Source: Candidatus Krumholzibacteriota bacterium (lineage in GTDB: Bacteria > Krumholzibacteriota > Krumholzibacteriia > JAJRXK01). From it: a DNA stretch of 42,793 bases. The position numbers and the translations under genes were made by a program. The notes beneath the pieces were generated by a model, which made no database searches, was not told where the DNA came from, and saw only the letters and a program-made list of their open reading frames with translations. The stretch lies in assembly GCA_024276305.1 (NCBI GenBank), contig JAJRXK010000090.1, positions 1 through 42,793 on the forward strand, written 5' to 3'. Of the stretch, positions 7,234-30,938 are shown in pieces (the stretch's first letter is position 1; every line of letters begins with the position of its first letter).

Positions 7234-7878
7234 ATGCTTCGCATCAACGAAATCTTCTTCAGTGTCCAGGGCGAGGGGTCGCGACGCGGTCGGCCCTGCC
7301 ACTTCGTGCGTTTGAGCGGGTGCCCCCTCCGCTGCCGGTGGTGCGACACCACCTATGCCTTTCACCAGGGTGAGCCCTGGACGTCCGAGGCCGTTCTCGA
7401 GCGGTTGGAAGAACTTTCTCCCACCCGCCTGGTCTGCGTGACCGGCGGCGAACCTCTGGCTCAGGCCGAGGTCCATGATCTGATGCGCGGGCTTTGCGAC
7501 GCTGGATTCACGGTCCTCCTCGAAAGCAGCGGAGCGTTGGATGCTCGAGGGGTGGATCCCCGGGTGGTGAGAATCCTCGACCTCAAGGCTCCGGGCAGCG
7601 GCGAGGAAGGTCGCAATTACTGGCCCAACTTCGAGGCATTGCGTCCGAGTGACGAGGTGAAGATCGTGATCACGGATCGTCGGGACTACGACTGGGCGGT
7701 GGACCGAATGCGGGAATTGCAATTGCAGGATCGGGTTCACTGCGTCCTCTTCGTTCCGGTGTGGGGAGAGCTCGAGGGATCGCAGTTGGCGGAGTGGATG
7801 CTGAACGATGCCGTCGATGCCACTCTACAACTCCAGGAACACAAGCTGCTCTGGCCGGATCGTGACCGAGGCGTTTGA
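7234..7878 (+). CDS. queE: 7-carboxy-7-deazaguanine synthase (radical SAM)
   Basis: QueE converts 6-carboxytetrahydropterin to 7-carboxy-7-deazaguanine in preQ0/queuosine synthesis, using a [4Fe-4S] cluster and S-adenosylmethionine. The 214-residue length is typical. The N-terminus has the QueE hallmark IFFSVQGEGSRRGRPCHFVR, then the cluster motif C30-x3-C34-x2-C37 with CDTTYAF. GGEPLAQ (SAM-binding GGEP) and LDLKAPGSGE follow. queC is next, with its ATG 12 nt after this stop. The 55-nt upstream gap holds a short inverted repeat (CCGTCC/GGACGG at 7201-7217) with no T-run. No queD or tRNA-guanine transglycosylase gene is in the window. Confidence 0.95.
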   Translation: MLRINEIFFSVQGEGSRRGRPCHFVRLSGCPLRCRWCDTTYAFHQGEPWTSEAVLERLEELSPTRLVCVTGGEPLAQAEVHDLMRGLCDAGFTVLLESSGALDARGVDPRVVRILDLKAPGSGEEGRNYWPNFEALRPSDEVKIVITDRRDYDWAVDRMRELQLQDRVHCVLFVPVWGELEGSQLAEWMLNDAVDATLQLQEHKLLWPDRDRGV

Positions 7879-23740: not shown

Positions 23741-25087
23741 ATGGTTCTGAAGGTCAGTGTTTCTGGGATCCGCGGGGTCATCGGCGAAACCCTCGATGCG
23801 GAGTCGATCTCGCGGTGGGCCAGCGCCTTCGGCAACTGGTTGCCCGAGGGTCCGGTGGTGCTCACTCGGGATTCACGACCGTCGGGTCCGATGGTCGAAG
23901 CGGCGGTGGAAGCGGCATTGCGTTCCACCGGGCACGACGTGGTGCGGGGAGGACTTCTCTCCACCCCGGCCTCCGAATACCTGGTCCAGGAGACGGATGC
24001 GGTGGGGGGCGTGATCGTCACTGCGAGCCACAATCCAGTCCAGTGGAATGCGCTCAAGTTGGTGCGGGGAGATGGACTCTTCCTCGATGCCGACCAGGTC
24101 GATGAACTTCGCACCCTCCACGACGCGTCGCAGCGAAAACATCGGAGGGCTCTGGATCTGGGTGGGCTGCGGGAGGATCTCCGGGGCGAGTCCCTTCATC
24201 GTCAGGCGATCCTGGAAATGAAGGAGATCGATGTGGCCGCGATCGCGGATCGGAAGATCCGCGTGGTGGTGGATGCGGTCGAAGGTGCAGGTGGTCATGC
24301 GTTGCCCGCGTTGCTGGAGTCCCTCGGGGCAGAAGTCCATCGCTTGCACTGCGGTTGTACGGGACACTTTCCCCACGATCCCGAACCCCGGCCGGAGAAT
24401 CTGGGCGAATTGATCGCGGCGGTCGCCGCGTTGGATGCCGATCTCGGCATGGCGGTGGATCCCGATGTGGACCGCCTGGCTCTGGTCGACCGGGGAGGCG
24501 TTGCCTTGAGCGAGGAGCTCACCTTGGCGGTCGCGACCGACTTCGTCCTGGAGCGAACTCCGGGCCCGGTGGTGGTGAACTTGAGCACCACCATGGCGCT
24601 CGACCGGGTGGCCGAGCGACACGGAGTGGAGATTTTCCGGGCCCCGGTCGGGGAAGCAAATGTGGTGGCGGAAATGATGGCCCGCGGCGCAGTGATCGGG
24701 GGAGAGGGCAATGGCGGCGTGATCTTCCCGGCCCTCCATCCGGGGCGGGACGCTCCTCTGGGTGCCGCATTGGTCCTTGCGGCGGTGGCCCATCGAGGAT
24801 CCCTTCGCCAGTGTCTGGATCGTTTCCCCAATGCCGAGATGGTCAAGGTGAAGCTGCCTCTCGACCAGAAGAATGACGATCCAGCCCTCTGGAAACGGGC
24901 CGCGGCGTCGATTGGCGAGTCTGGAAGCTGGAATGAGAGGGACGGAATCCGTTACGATTTGGGGGATCGCTGGGTCCACCTTCGGCGGTCGAATACCGAG
25001 AATGCTCTGCGGATCATCGCGGAGGCACCGGATGCGGCGGAGGCTACGGCGATCATCGACCGAGTACGACAAGCCATGCAAGGCTGA
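23741..25087 (+). CDS. glmM: Phosphoglucosamine mutase (archaeal/Bacteroidetes-type)
   Basis: An alpha-D-phosphohexomutase of 448 residues. It has the phosphoserine loop VTASHNPVQWN (Ser96), the metal loop DPDVDRLALVD (D240/D242/D244), the sugar loop GGEGNGGVIFP (about 320-330) and the phosphate-binding end RRSNTENALRIIAEAP. The GGEGNGG form is that of archaeal and Bacteroidetes-type phosphoglucosamine mutases, not the E. coli GlmM form. glmS follows 35 nt downstream and supports GlcN-6-P to GlcN-1-P conversion for UDP-GlcNAc synthesis. Phosphomannomutase or phosphoglucomutase activity remains possible. The ATG has GAGGT 6 nt upstream. Confidence 0.87.
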   Translation: MVLKVSVSGIRGVIGETLDAESISRWASAFGNWLPEGPVVLTRDSRPSGPMVEAAVEAALRSTGHDVVRGGLLSTPASEYLVQETDAVGGVIVTASHNPVQWNALKLVRGDGLFLDADQVDELRTLHDASQRKHRRALDLGGLREDLRGESLHRQAILEMKEIDVAAIADRKIRVVVDAVEGAGGHALPALLESLGAEVHRLHCGCTGHFPHDPEPRPENLGELIAAVAALDADLGMAVDPDVDRLALVDRGGVALSEELTLAVATDFVLERTPGPVVVNLSTTMALDRVAERHGVEIFRAPVGEANVVAEMMARGAVIGGEGNGGVIFPALHPGRDAPLGAALVLAAVAHRGSLRQCLDRFPNAEMVKVKLPLDQKNDDPALWKRAAASIGESGSWNERDGIRYDLGDRWVHLRRSNTENALRIIAEAPDAAEATAIIDRVRQAMQG

Positions 25088-25122: not shown

Positions 25123-26949
25123 ATGTGTGGAATCATCGCGATGATCGGCAACGGACCGACCTCGAAGACCCTGGTCGACGGTCTGCGTCGTCTGGAGTAT
25201 CGCGGATACGACAGTTCGGGGATCGCGGTCATCGGAGACGGTACGATCGATGTCCGCAAGTCCGAGGGGAAGATCGCGCGTCTGGCCCAACTGCTCCAAG
25301 GTGATCCGGTGGACGGTCGCTGCGGGATCGCGCACACTCGGTGGGCCACTCACGGTGAGCCCAACCAGAAGAATGCCCATCCCCATACCAGCAACGATGG
25401 CAAGTTGGCCCTGGTGCACAATGGAATCATCGAGAACTACCGGGCCCTGAAGGTCGGACTCTCCCAGCGTGGTTACGAATTCCATACCGACACCGACAGT
25501 GAAGTGCTGGTCAACCTCATCCATGCCCACTACCGCGGCGATCTCGCGGCGGCGGTTCGCGAATCCTTGGTCCTGGTGGAAGGAACCTACGGCATCGCGG
25601 TGATCCATGCCGACGAACCCGACCGCATCGTGGGAGCCCGCAACGGCAGTCCCTTGATCGTGGGCCTGGGCGATGGCGAGTTCTTCCTGGCGAGCGATGT
25701 GGCCGCCATGCTGACCCGGACGCGTCAAGTGATCTACCTCGACGACGGGGAATGCGCGATCATCACTGCCGATGGCGTGGAGACTTGTACCGTCGCCAAC
25801 GAGAGCGTCGACAAGGAAGTCACCGAAGTGACCTGGGATCTCGATCAGATCGAGAAGGGGGGCTTCGACCACTTCATGCTCAAGGAGATCCACGAGCAAC
25901 CCGAGACCATCCGCAACACCTTCCGCGGACGCGTGGTCTACGACGAGGGAGACGGTCATCTGGGTGGATTGAACATGGATACCTCCCAACTCCGGGACAT
26001 CGAAAGAGTGGTGTTTCTGGCCTGCGGTACCAGTTTTCACGCCGGGCTGGTGGGAGAATACATGATCGAGGATCTGGCTCGGCTTCCGGTGGAAGTGGAG
26101 TACGCCAGTGAGTTTCGCTATCGGCGTCCGATGCTGCCGCCGAACACCTTGGTCGTCGCGATCTCCCAATCGGGGGAAACGGTCGACACTCTGTGCGCGA
26201 TGCGTGAAGCGAAGAAGCAGGGAGCGCGAGTCCTGGGGATCACCAATGTCGTGGGTTCGACCATCGCCCGGGAGAGCGATGGAGGAGTGTACATCCACGC
26301 TGGTCCGGAGATTGGTGTTGCGTCCACGAAGGCCTTTACCTGTCAGGTCACGGCCCTGGCGATTCTGACCCTCTGTCTGGCTCGAGTGCGGAGCTTGAAG
26401 CTCGAGGAAGGCCAGGAGATCATCCACGCCCTGCACCGCATTCCGCGTCAGATCGACCGCATCTTGGAGCAGGAAGAGCAGATCCGGACATTGGCTGCGG
26501 ACTACGCGGGCCACTCGAATTTCCTCTACCTCGGGAGGGGATACAACTATCCCATCGCTCTCGAGGGAGCGCTCAAACTGAAGGAAATCAGTTACGTGCA
26601 CGCCGAGGGCTATCCCGCGGCCGAAATGAAACACGGGCCGATCGCCCTCATCGACAAGGACATGCCGGTGGTGGTGTTGTGCACTCATGACAGCACCTAC
26701 GAGAAGATCAAGGGCAACGTCCAGGAGGTGAAGGCGCGGAGCGGACGAGTCCTGGCCATCGTCACCGACGGAGACACCGAGATCGCAGAGATGGCGGATC
26801 ACGTGATCACCGTGCCACCGACTCTGGACATCCTTTCCCCCTTGCTCAATGTGATTCCTCTGCAGCTGCTGGCCTACCACATTGCAGTGCTGCGGGAATG
26901 CAACGTGGACCAGCCCCGGAACCTCGCCAAGAGTGTGACCGTGGAGTAG
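25123..26949 (+). CDS. glmS: Glutamine-fructose-6-phosphate aminotransferase (isomerizing)
   Basis: GlmS makes glucosamine-6-phosphate from fructose-6-phosphate and glutamine. The 608-residue enzyme has the N-terminal nucleophile Cys2 (MCGIIAMIG), class II glutaminase motifs (LEYRGYDSSGIAV, HTRWATHGEPNQ, HNGIIENY), two SIS domains (ACGTSFHAGLVGEY; ISQSGETVDTL; LGRGYNYPIALEGALKLKEI) and the conserved end DQPRNLAKSVTVE. It sits between glmM and ridA with short gaps. The 35-nt upstream gap is too small for a glmS ribozyme. A small hairpin (CCTTCG/CGAAGG, 25097-25110) lies beside the ribosome site. Confidence 0.97.
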   Translation: MCGIIAMIGNGPTSKTLVDGLRRLEYRGYDSSGIAVIGDGTIDVRKSEGKIARLAQLLQGDPVDGRCGIAHTRWATHGEPNQKNAHPHTSNDGKLALVHNGIIENYRALKVGLSQRGYEFHTDTDSEVLVNLIHAHYRGDLAAAVRESLVLVEGTYGIAVIHADEPDRIVGARNGSPLIVGLGDGEFFLASDVAAMLTRTRQVIYLDDGECAIITADGVETCTVANESVDKEVTEVTWDLDQIEKGGFDHFMLKEIHEQPETIRNTFRGRVVYDEGDGHLGGLNMDTSQLRDIERVVFLACGTSFHAGLVGEYMIEDLARLPVEVEYASEFRYRRPMLPPNTLVVAISQSGETVDTLCAMREAKKQGARVLGITNVVGSTIARESDGGVYIHAGPEIGVASTKAFTCQVTALAILTLCLARVRSLKLEEGQEIIHALHRIPRQIDRILEQEEQIRTLAADYAGHSNFLYLGRGYNYPIALEGALKLKEISYVHAEGYPAAEMKHGPIALIDKDMPVVVLCTHDSTYEKIKGNVQEVKARSGRVLAIVTDGDTEIAEMADHVITVPPTLDILSPLLNVIPLQLLAYHIAVLRECNVDQPRNLAKSVTVE

Positions 26950-26956
26950 GAGGGCC

Positions 26957-27346
26957 ATGGACGAACGCCAAGTGATCTCGACCGTTGAGGCCCCTCGCGC
27001 GGTGGGTCCCTACAGCCAGGCCATCCGCAGCGGAGACTTCGTGTTCACCGCGGGGCAGATCGGTCTCGACCCCGAGACCGGGGTCCTGGTCGGCGAAGAG
27101 GTCGAGGCTCAGGCGGAGCAGGTGATGCGCAACCTCGAGGCAGTGCTCCGCGCTGCGGGCGCCACGGTGGCCGATGTGATCAAGTCGACCGTCTATCTCG
27201 TGGATCTGGCGGATTTCTCCAAGGTCAACGAGATCTACGCCTCGCTCTTCTCCCAGGCTCCGCCCGCGCGGACTACGGTCGAGGTGTCCGCGCTCCCCCT
27301 GGGTGCGAAGGTGGAAGTCGAGCTGGTGGCCCGGCTCCAAGCCTAG
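26957..27346 (+). CDS. ridA: RidA family enamine/imine deaminase
   Basis: RidA hydrolyses reactive 2-aminoacrylate-type enamines and imines, protecting PLP enzymes. The 129-residue protein matches in length. It has GPYSQAIRSGDFVFTAGQIGLDPETG, VMRNLEAVLRAAGAT, KSTVYLVDLADFSKVNEIY and the carboxylate-binding arginine in PPARTTVEV, followed by AKVEVELVA. It begins 7 nt after the glmS stop, with AGGAGG upstream, so it shares the glmM-glmS mRNA. The trimeric protein is cytosolic. Confidence 0.94.
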   Translation: MDERQVISTVEAPRAVGPYSQAIRSGDFVFTAGQIGLDPETGVLVGEEVEAQAEQVMRNLEAVLRAAGATVADVIKSTVYLVDLADFSKVNEIYASLFSQAPPARTTVEVSALPLGAKVEVELVARLQA

Positions 27347-27379
27347 GCGCCTTCTTCCAATGCTTTCCGCCAGAATTGT

Positions 27380-27396
27380 GGGGCGACTTCCGCCCC
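27380..27396 (+). terminator. Weak hairpin after ridA
   Basis: GGGGCG (27380-27385) and CGCCCC (27391-27396) form a 6-bp stem with a 5-nt loop, 33 nt after the ridA stop and 30 nt before selC. No T-run follows, so read-through into selC is likely. Confidence 0.3.
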
Positions 27397-27426
27397 GATT
27401 GGGACTAAGTTGGGGACCGACAGGTC

Positions 27427-27521
27427 GGGAATGGATGGGTCCTGGTGGGCCCCGGGGACTTCAAATCCTGCGGTCGGGCGTCCGCGTCCGAGGTGCGTTC
27501 GATTCGCACACATTCCCGCCA
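27427..27521 (+). tRNA. selC: Selenocysteine tRNA (anticodon TCA)
   Basis: This 95-nt gene has the full tRNA-Sec architecture. The acceptor is GGGAATGG/ACATTCCC: 8 positions, 7 paired, with the innermost G-A unpaired. An AT linker follows. The 6-bp D-stem GGGTCC/GGGCCC has the 4-nt loop TGGT. The anticodon loop is CTTCAAA with TCA at 27461-27463, inside the signature GGACTTCAAATCC. A 22-nt variable arm has a 7-bp stem (TCGGGCG/CGTCCGA, loop TCCG). The T-arm is GTGCG/CGCAC with loop TTCGATT. G73 and an encoded CCA end the gene. The anticodon stem is imperfect (a G-G mismatch and a G-T pair). It charges with serine, which SelA converts to Sec for UGA decoding with SelB. No selA, selB or selD gene is in the window. 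Confidence 0.9.
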
Positions 27522-27549
27522 CCATCTCCCCGTGTCCCGAGCTTGGACG

Positions 27550-28527
27550 ATGACCCTCCGCTCTGAGTTCTCTCGCATCCTCTTCGTGGTCAATCCCGCG
27601 GCGGGGCGTGGTCTGGCTCGGGCCGAGCTATTGCCGATCCGGCAGCATCTCCGCGATCGAGGCGTCGAAGCCGAGATCTTTCTCACTTCGGCTCCCGGGG
27701 GAGCGACTCGGATTCTGGAAGGCCTGCCTCTCGAGCCGAGTACGCTGGTCATCGCGGTGGGGGGCGACGGGACGGTGCATGAAGTGGCCTTGGCCCTTTT
27801 GGACCGGCCGGGCCTGCACCTCGGAGTGATTCCCCTGGGGACGGGCAATGACGTGGCGTGTCAGCTGGGGATGAAGTCCCATGTTCCCACCGCCCTCGAC
27901 TCCATCCTCGATGGTGTGCTCATCCCCTGGGATATCGGGGTGGTCGGGGAGCATTGCTTCGTGAACAGCGTGGGCTTCGCCTTCTCGGCCGAGACGAGTC
28001 ATTGGAGCCGCCATACCGGCCCATTGCGCGGGAACCTCCGTTACACCTACGCGATCCTCCGGGCCTGGTGGCAGCACACCGGGCTCGTTCTGGGCTTCGA
28101 CGGGTTGGAAGCGTCGGGAGAGCGACGGATCGGCCTCATGGAGATCGGGGTGGGAGACCGCTGTGGGGGAGGATATCGCATCACGGCTCGGGCTCTTCCC
28201 TTCGATGGGCTCCTCGACGTGTGCATCATCGACGATCTGAGCCGATGGGCCCTGCCGCGCGTGGTTCCTCGGGCTCGGAATGGGAAGCATATCGGTCTCC
28301 CGCGCGTACACTACGAGCAGGTGAGCAGTTTTCGGATCAAGCTCCCCGCAGATACCCGCATCCACGTGGACGGGGAGGTCGTCGAGCTGGCGCGGGGCGA
28401 GCACTCGGTGCGGATCCGGCCTCGCCTGTTGTCTTGTGTGGCGGCGGCGGACTCTGCTCTGGCCCGATCCTACCAGGAGCAGAAGCACCGCCTGCAGCAT
28501 GGCGTTGGAGATGGAGCCGGATCATGA
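27550..28527 (+). CDS. Diacylglycerol kinase family (DagK/YegS-like) lipid kinase
   Basis: The 325-residue protein has the DAGK catalytic fold. It begins RILFVVNPAAGRGLARAEL (phosphate-binding NPAAGRG), then VIAVGGDGTVHEVALAL (GGDGT, about 71-75) and GVIPLGTGNDVACQL. The C-terminal beta domain has GVVGEHCFVNSVGFAFSAE and ends with IHVDGEVVELARGEHSVRIRP. Family members phosphorylate diacylglycerol, other lipids or sphingoid bases at the inner face of the membrane. ATG 27550 was chosen because the domain starts there. An in-frame ATG at 27445 lies inside the tRNA-Sec gene and must be wrong. The start is only 28 nt after the tRNA CCA, and the stop overlaps the next gene by 4 nt. Confidence 0.9.
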   Translation: MTLRSEFSRILFVVNPAAGRGLARAELLPIRQHLRDRGVEAEIFLTSAPGGATRILEGLPLEPSTLVIAVGGDGTVHEVALALLDRPGLHLGVIPLGTGNDVACQLGMKSHVPTALDSILDGVLIPWDIGVVGEHCFVNSVGFAFSAETSHWSRHTGPLRGNLRYTYAILRAWWQHTGLVLGFDGLEASGERRIGLMEIGVGDRCGGGYRITARALPFDGLLDVCIIDDLSRWALPRVVPRARNGKHIGLPRVHYEQVSSFRIKLPADTRIHVDGEVVELARGEHSVRIRPRLLSCVAAADSALARSYQEQKHRLQHGVGDGAGS

Positions 28528-29084
28528 TCCACCTTCGGAGGCCGATGGTCTTCGCCCTCCTCCTTCTGTGGGTGAGTGTGGAGGAGGTCGTCGCCGCTCC
28601 GGCGGTCACGGATTCGCTCCGTCGGGTGGAACGAGAGGAAGCCTTGGCTCCTCTGCGAGCCGAGCATCGGAGTGCTCGAGCTGCGGTGGCCATGACCCCG
28701 CTCTTTCCGGGATGGGGCCAGCTCTATGCGGACACCCCATTCTGGGGAGTGGTCGCCTTTGCCGCGGAGATGTACTACCTGGGAAATATTCTCATGGAGT
28801 TCCGTCGGGTGGAGCGGGAACGAGTGCGGCGCGATGCCCTCGAAGAAGGTTCCCCCGAGAGGGCATTGCGAGACATGCTGGTCAACGAGCACAAGGAGCG
28901 GGTGCGGGACTATCTCTGGTGGTCCGCCGGAGGCTTGCTCATTGTGTCTCTGGACGCCTTCGTGAGCGTCGAACTGGCGGAATTCGACAGTGGGGATCCC
29001 CCGACTCCTGATCTGGACCGCGAATGGTCCGAGCCAGGATCCGCTGGCGAGGGAGTGGCGCTCCGGCTACACTTCTCATTCTGA
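28524..29084 (+). CDS. DUF5683-like membrane protein
   Basis: The 186-residue protein has an N-terminal signal or anchor (PMVFALLLLWVSVEEVVAAP). The DUF5683-type motif AMTPLFPGWGQLYADTPFWG is followed by two hydrophobic segments (VVAFAAEMYYLGNILMEF and WWSAGGLLIVSLDAFVSVEL) with a charged helix between them (RRVERERVRRDALEE). It ends in LRLHFSF, a beta-strand-like, aromatic-ended tail seen in envelope proteins of FCB bacteria. The ATG overlaps the lipid kinase stop (ATGA). Function is unknown; an envelope role alongside the lipid kinase is inference. Confidence 0.72.
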   Translation: MIHLRRPMVFALLLLWVSVEEVVAAPAVTDSLRRVEREEALAPLRAEHRSARAAVAMTPLFPGWGQLYADTPFWGVVAFAAEMYYLGNILMEFRRVERERVRRDALEEGSPERALRDMLVNEHKERVRDYLWWSAGGLLIVSLDAFVSVELAEFDSGDPPTPDLDREWSEPGSAGEGVALRLHFSF

Positions 29085-29132
29085 CGCGCCGGCCGATCCG
29101 GTCACCTTTCCTCTGCCGATTTGTAGAGTTCC

Positions 29133-30938
29133 ATGTCCATCGACCCATCCAAGGTCCGCAACTTCTGCATTGTGGCGCACATCGACCATGGCAAGTCGAC
29201 CTTGGCGGATCGTCTTCTGGAACGTGCGGGCACGGTGGCCCTGCGGGACATGCGGGCCCAGCTCCTCGATTCCATGGACCTCGAGCAGGAGCGCGGGATC
29301 ACGATCAAGAGTCATCCGGTTCGACTGGATTACGAGGCGAGTGATGGACAGGAATACGTCTTCCACCTCATCGACACTCCGGGGCACGTGGACTTTCACC
29401 ACGAAGTGAGTCGCAGTCTGGCGGCCTGCGAAGGGGCTCTCCTGGTCGTCGATGCCGCGCAGGGGATCGAAGCTCAGACCCTGAACAATCTCTACCTGGC
29501 GCTCGAGCACGACCTGGAGATCTTGCCCGTGCTCAACAAGATCGACCTCCCTTCGGCTCGCCCCGACGAAGTGACCCACGAGATCGTGGACCTCATCGGC
29601 TGCGACGAGAGTGAAGTCGTCCGAGTCAGCGCCAAGACGGGGGAGGGGATCGACGAGTTGCTCGAGGCTATCGTTCGCCTCGTTCCTCCTCCGAAGCCCC
29701 ACCGCGACAAGCCGCTCCGCGCGATCGTCTTCGACAGTGTCTTCGATGCCTATCGGGGAACCATCGCCTATGTGCGGGTGGTCGACGGAATCATCCGCAC
29801 CGGTGATCGCATTCGGATGATGGGGGGAGGGCAGATTCACGACGTCATGGAGGTTGGTTTCTTTCGTCTCAGCCAGATCAAGACCGAATCGATCGAAGCC
29901 GGTCAAGTGGGGTATGTCGCCACCGGGGCCAAGAGCGTGGCCGCAGTGCAGATGGGCGACACGATCACTTCCGACGCCCATCCTGCGGAGGAGCCGGTCC
30001 TTGGGTACGTCGAAGCCAAGCCTATGGTCTTCAGTGGATTCTATCCGATCGACACGGACGACTACGTGGATCTCAAGGAAGCTCTCGAGAAGCTCCAGCT
30101 CAACGATGCGGCCCTCACTTTCGAGCCCGAGACCAGCGTGGCCTTGGGATTCGGATTCCGATGCGGCTTCTTGGGATTGCTCCACCTCGAGATCGTACAG
30201 GAGCGTCTGGAGCGAGAGTTCGACCTGGAACTGATTGCAACCTTGCCCAATGTGGAGTACCACGCCGTGCTTCAGGACGGTACGGAGGTGAAGGTCGAGA
30301 ATCCCAGCAAGATGCCCGATCCCTCCGAGCTCAGCAGCGTTCACGAACCCTTCGTGACCGTGTCGGTGATCACTCCCAAGGAGTATGTGGGCGGGATGAT
30401 GACCCTCACCATCGAGCGACGGGGCGCCCAGACCGGCATGGAGTACATGGACACCGATCGGGTGAAAGTGGACTTCGAAATGCCTCTCTCCGAGCTCGTG
30501 GTGGACTATTTCGACAAGATCAAGAGTGTGAGCCGTGGATATGCGAGTCTGGACTACGAGCTGCTCGGCTATCGTGAGAGCGACTTGGTGAAACTGGACA
30601 TCTTGCTCAACGGAGAGCCGGTGGACGCGTTGAGCGTCATCGTCCATCGGTCGACGTCTTATGAATGGGGGCGGGATCTCTGCCGGAAGCTCAAGGAGCT
30701 CCTGCCGCGTCAGATGTTCGAAGTGTCCATCCAGGCGGCAATTGGTGGCAGGGTGATTGCTCGAACCAATGTGAAGGCCCTCCGCAAGAACGTCACCGCC
30801 AAGTGCTACGGCGGTGACGTTTCCCGCAAGCGCAAGCTTCTCGAGAAACAAAAAGAGGGCAAGCGCCGGATGAAGAGCGTGGGGAGTGTGGAGATTCCTC
30901 AGGAGGCATTCTTTGCCGTGTTGAAGGTGGAACGATGA
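29133..30938 (+). CDS. lepA: Elongation factor 4 (back-translocating GTPase)
   Basis: LepA is a ribosome-bound GTPase linked to translation fidelity or initiation. The 601-residue length is exact for the family. G1 [17 protein letters not shown]2/G3 ([21 protein letters not shown]), G4 NKIDLPSA and the LepA-specific C-terminal domain with [20 protein letters not shown] and [10 protein letters not shown] are all present. It starts the conserved lepA-hemW-hrcA-grpE-dnaK-dnaJ block. The 4-nt overlap with lepB at 30935-30938 couples them. The 48-nt gap upstream holds no clear promoter. Confidence 0.98.

Follow-up and report, generated by a model that had tools for sequence, protein, structure and literature searches.

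The 42,793-nt stretch analysed here, hereafter the window, is contig JAJRXK010000090.1 (assembly GCA_024276305.1) of a Candidatus Krumholzibacteriota bacterium. Its gap at 27347–27549, which separates a ridA open reading frame (ORF) ending at 27346 from a lipid-kinase gene with an ATG at 27550, had been predicted from the letters alone to hold a 95-nt selenocysteine tRNA (tRNA-Sec). Both the borders of the gap and the tRNA were recovered: ARAGORN called a tRNA-SeC with anticodon TCA on the plus strand at exactly 27427–27521, and the Rfam model RF01852 matched 27427–27517 over model positions 1–91 of 91 with 72.1 bits (gathering cut-off 47 bits; E = 5.5e-13). Across the 3.55-Mb assembly this locus was the single RF01852 match above the cut-off; the ten other matches, at 30–44 bits, are most likely tRNAs with a long variable arm such as tRNA-Leu or tRNA-Ser. 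The parts of the gene are as follows.

27427–27521, + strand: tRNA-Sec gene (selC), anticodon TCA, encoded CCA (ARAGORN; RF01852; tRNA-Sec found in 69/80 genomes of the class)
27427–27434, + strand: 5' strand of the acceptor stem, GGGAATGG, with the eighth base opposed as G-A (sequence; pair counts in 24 distinct relatives)
27437–27452, + strand: D-arm, 6-bp stem GGGTCC/GGGCCC and 4-nt loop TGGT (sequence, fold, Rfam alignment)
27453–27472, + strand: anticodon arm CGGGGA-CTTCAAA-TCCT[G]CG, anticodon TCA, bulged G43 or G27-G43 mismatch (Rfam alignment, fold; same in 4/4 family genomes)
27474–27491, + strand: variable-arm stem-loop, 7 bp with a 4-nt loop (fold)
27493–27509, + strand: T-arm, 5-bp stem GTGCG/CGCAC and loop TTCGATT (sequence, fold)
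27510–27521, + strand: 3' strand of the acceptor stem, ACATTCCC, followed by G73 and CCA (sequence)

Reading and folding of the sequence gave a cloverleaf in which the predicted 6-bp D-stem with its 4-nt loop, the 7-bp variable stem and G73 plus CCA are all present; the anticodon loop is CTTCAAA and the 3' end reads GCCA, that is, the discriminator G73 and an encoded CCA. An ORF call from 27445 had been expected to mask the tRNA, and a GTG-started ORF at 27445–28527 does overlap it. Since this ORF runs through the tRNA, the RNA signal might be a chance match or a piece of a protein-coding gene. However, the E-value of the RF01852 match, a kinase domain match that begins at residue 9 counted from the ATG at 27550, and the retention of the tRNA as an RNA in 69 genomes of the class, while the kinase protein is only 50–53% identical within the source family, make the probability of this explanation negligible. 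The true start of the kinase is likely the ATG at 27550 and not the GTG at 27445.

Two positions depart from standard pairing. The acceptor has eight positions per strand with G-A as the eighth pair, leaving 7 + 5 standard pairs when the 5-bp T-stem is counted, and the anticodon stem carries a G-G at 27:43, which can equally be read as a 6-bp stem with G43 bulged out, the form drawn by both Infernal and ViennaRNA. The original prediction had noticed both and called them unusual for this tRNA. The pairs are real, but for this lineage they are not unusual: the acceptor mismatch occurs in every relative examined from the class, Candidatus Krumholzibacteriia, and the anticodon feature in 4/4 genomes of the family. 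In 24 distinct tRNA-Sec sequences of the class, taken from 30 loci and unselected for acceptor pair 8, this pair was standard in none (G-A in 21, A-A in two, G-G in one) and is therefore a lineage-wide trait and not a defect. Pairs 1–7 were standard in all 24; pairs 4–6 vary among relatives and remain standard, pair 6 having changed on both sides. The four genomes of the source family, and no others compared, have the G27-G43 mismatch (or bulged G43). The non-canonical pairs of this tRNA-Sec thus appear, from the sequences compared, to be normal for the lineage, and the G-A at pair 8 and the bulge at 43 would be inherited features that the tRNA tolerates.

The same two positions could instead mark a degenerate tRNA-Sec pseudogene with broken acceptor and anticodon stems, left by a trait in the course of being lost. 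We rejected this reading because the mismatches are common to relatives, in which the same positions are non-canonical alongside the full machinery; moreover, the genome holds no other tRNA-Sec above the cut-off, and UGA decoding is still needed by the selD, peroxiredoxin and SelW-like genes described below. A pseudogene is accordingly very improbable.

The gene agrees with the bacterial tRNA-Sec of RF01852 in its UCA anticodon, its D-stem (6 bp, 4-nt loop), its long variable arm and 5-bp T-stem, the eight positions on each acceptor strand, and G73 with an encoded CCA. It differs in the G-A at the eighth acceptor pair (7 + 5 standard pairs) and in the bulged G or G-G mismatch at 43. Acceptor plus T arms of 12 bp and a 43a bulge have already been described in bacterial tRNA-Sec (Santesmasses et al. 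2017, PMC5330540). With these 12-bp (7+5) 43a-bulge variants, including the Cloacimonetes type cited there, the present tRNA shares 12 standard acceptor and T pairs and a bulge at 43/43a; it differs in having eight residues per acceptor strand with an opposed G-A mismatch at the junction. Its anatomy closely resembles the types of that study but does not coincide with them. The tRNA-Sec of other Candidatus Krumholzibacteriia and of records labelled Eisenbacteria, Fermentibacteria, Latescibacterota and others have the same anatomy with a non-standard pair 8 (G-A, A-A, C-A), although the T-stem is GTGCG/CGCAC in the source genome and GTGGG/CCCAC in the others compared. A pattern scan also returned tens of tRNA-Sec of other phyla with a non-standard pair 8; because the pattern fixed the 3' base as A, this is no measure of how common the mismatch is there. 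It seems doubtful that Krumholzibacteriia and several neighbouring phyla possess a distinct tRNA-Sec architecture, with pair 8 always mismatched (eight residues per strand, 12 standard pairs) and SelA and SelB adapted to it.

The remaining Sec machinery was found by a whole-genome profile search, which returned selA (TIGR00474, 448 bits, cut-off 268), selB (TIGR00475, 350 bits, cut-off 242) and selD (TIGR00476, 328 bits, cut-off 125; one in-frame TGA), all located on contigs other than that of the tRNA-Sec. In Candidatus Krumholzibacteriia, SelA was found in 19/19 genomes, SelB in 55/58 and tRNA-Sec in 69/80; the genomes lacking SelB or tRNA-Sec are compatible with incomplete assemblies. Two class genomes gave two tRNA-Sec matches above the cut-off each, G075 (C32:9592-9677) and G049 (on two contigs), and the second tRNA-Sec of G075 is divergent, at 58.7 bits. 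The expectation that this genome decodes some UGA as Sec agrees with the covariance score above threshold and with three sel genes above their curated cut-offs: UGA is very probably read as selenocysteine in the source genome, as in nearly the whole class. In the literature, which was incompletely covered, no account devoted to Sec use in Krumholzibacteriia was found.

Some bacteria have allo-tRNAs or selC* tRNA-Cys whose acceptor arms are unusual (PMC7609411). We therefore considered whether the gene encodes a tRNA of this sort, either an allo-tRNA or an opal suppressor of the tRNA-Cys/Ser type resembling selC, and places serine or cysteine, instead of Sec, at UGA. Against this, the tRNA has the D-stem form that SelA recognises (6 bp, 4-nt loop), eight positions on each acceptor strand, a T-stem of 5 bp, G73 and UCA; it matches the whole of RF01852, and the genome contains selA, selB and selD. 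We regard this reading as highly unlikely.

The selenoproteome was sampled by family (Molybdopterin/FdhA-type, CCG-domain, AhpC/TSA and Rdx). In selD (G000:C42; L029:1489-2535) the in-frame TGA falls at the known Sec/Cys position, in the catalytic loop AAAGUAAK. A peroxiredoxin gene (L193; G000:C114:24247-24624) has its single internal TGA at the peroxidatic cysteine, FTPTU, where Cys paralogues read FTFVC, and a SelW-like Rdx gene (L199; G000:C2:46939-47145) has a single internal TGA at the second residue of the CxxC motif, YCGVUNY. The TGAs of the latter two genes recur at the same positions in relatives. Established selenoprotein families of prokaryotes include TxxU peroxiredoxins, SelW-like proteins and SelD (PMC13188914). 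The suspicion that selenoprotein genes of this genome may be mis-annotated as truncated is consistent with these three genes, each with one in-frame TGA. In contrast, fdhA, which had been offered as an example of a Sec gene, did not bear this out: no Sec formate dehydrogenase was found, with an internal stop in 0/6 Molybdopterin-family matches in the genome, and none of the CCG-domain genes of the source genome has an internal stop. At least five AhpC/TSA-family genes were seen in each of the relatives G003 and G001, with one in-frame TGA per gene. The sequences suggest that the selenoproteome of the relatives may be rich in peroxiredoxin-fold proteins.

Within the window, a codon-usage scan for a TGA between two coding stretches gave its best candidates at 7876, 8560 and 42000. 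All three were rejected as Sec codons: at 7876 and 8560 a radical-SAM queE-like gene and queC, which are neighbours in the same frame, come to their ends, and 42000 is at the boundary of a mutS2-like gene and dnaG. Because these TGAs are gene ends or a gene boundary, the scan, with its best TGAs inspected, found no selenoprotein in the window, as the original prediction had also reported.

Taken together, 27427–27521 is almost certainly the genome's single functional selC gene, serving SelA/SelB/SelD-based Sec insertion at the UGA of a few selenoprotein mRNAs. Some observations count against it. The source genome assembly is fragmented, in 119 contigs. Scans for a promoter or terminator consensus near the tRNA-Sec, which have little power in such a genome, found none. 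Finally, no convincing selenocysteine insertion sequence (SECIS) was found after the UGA in the three genes: when the 50 nt from the UGA were compared with shuffled sequences, a better-than-shuffled fold was obtained for selD only (z = -2.4, a strong hairpin), with z = -0.2 for the peroxiredoxin and z = 0.7 for the SelW-like gene.

The immediate neighbours of the selC gene are the following.

26957–27346, + strand: upstream neighbour, RidA/endoribonuclease L-PSP family gene (Pfam PF01042, 140.5 bits; near tRNA-Sec in 24/29 class loci)
27550–28527, + strand: downstream neighbour, YegS/BmrU-type lipid (diacylglycerol) kinase (Pfam PF00781, 99 bits, and PF19279, 66 bits; NCBIfam TIGR00147 above cut-off)

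The gene order is glmM-like, glmS, ridA, tRNA-Sec, YegS-type kinase, lepA and signal peptidase, and the glmS-ridA-tRNA-Sec-(kinase)-lepA neighbourhood, at 25123–30938 of the window, is kept across the class and beyond. The tRNA-Sec of many Eisenbacteria-, Latescibacterota- and Gemmatimonadetes-labelled records likewise has glmS, ridA and lepA nearby. Together with the frequency of ridA at the class loci, this suggests that the position is old and that the tRNA-Sec gene was probably not acquired recently. With the lipid-kinase protein as query against genome contigs, no relatives were found. The phosphoglucosamine mutase gene at 23741–25087 matched the archaeal-type Arch_GlmM model with 457 bits (cut-off 439) and fell below the cut-off of the bacterial glmM model (187 bits, cut-off 448).

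In the proposed pathway, serine would be charged onto the tRNA-Sec by seryl-tRNA synthetase (SerRS), SelA would convert the charged tRNA to Sec-tRNA with selenophosphate supplied by SelD, and SelB would deliver it to the UGA codons of a small selenoprotein set comprising at least SelD, a peroxiredoxin and a SelW-like protein. What the sequence itself shows is the tRNA gene, the genes of the three protein factors and the TGA codons in frame; serylation, Sec conversion and delivery are taken from what is known of this pathway in bacteria (reviewed in PMC13188914). The tRNA-Sec and its machinery are a known kind of system, useful for annotation and of low surprise. With UGA very probably read as Sec, automatic annotation would truncate or mis-start selD, the peroxiredoxin gene and the SelW-like gene, and relatives hold several further Sec peroxiredoxin-fold genes. 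How strict the requirement of SelA and SelB for 13 pairs is could be tested naturally on the class-wide mismatch at pair 8.
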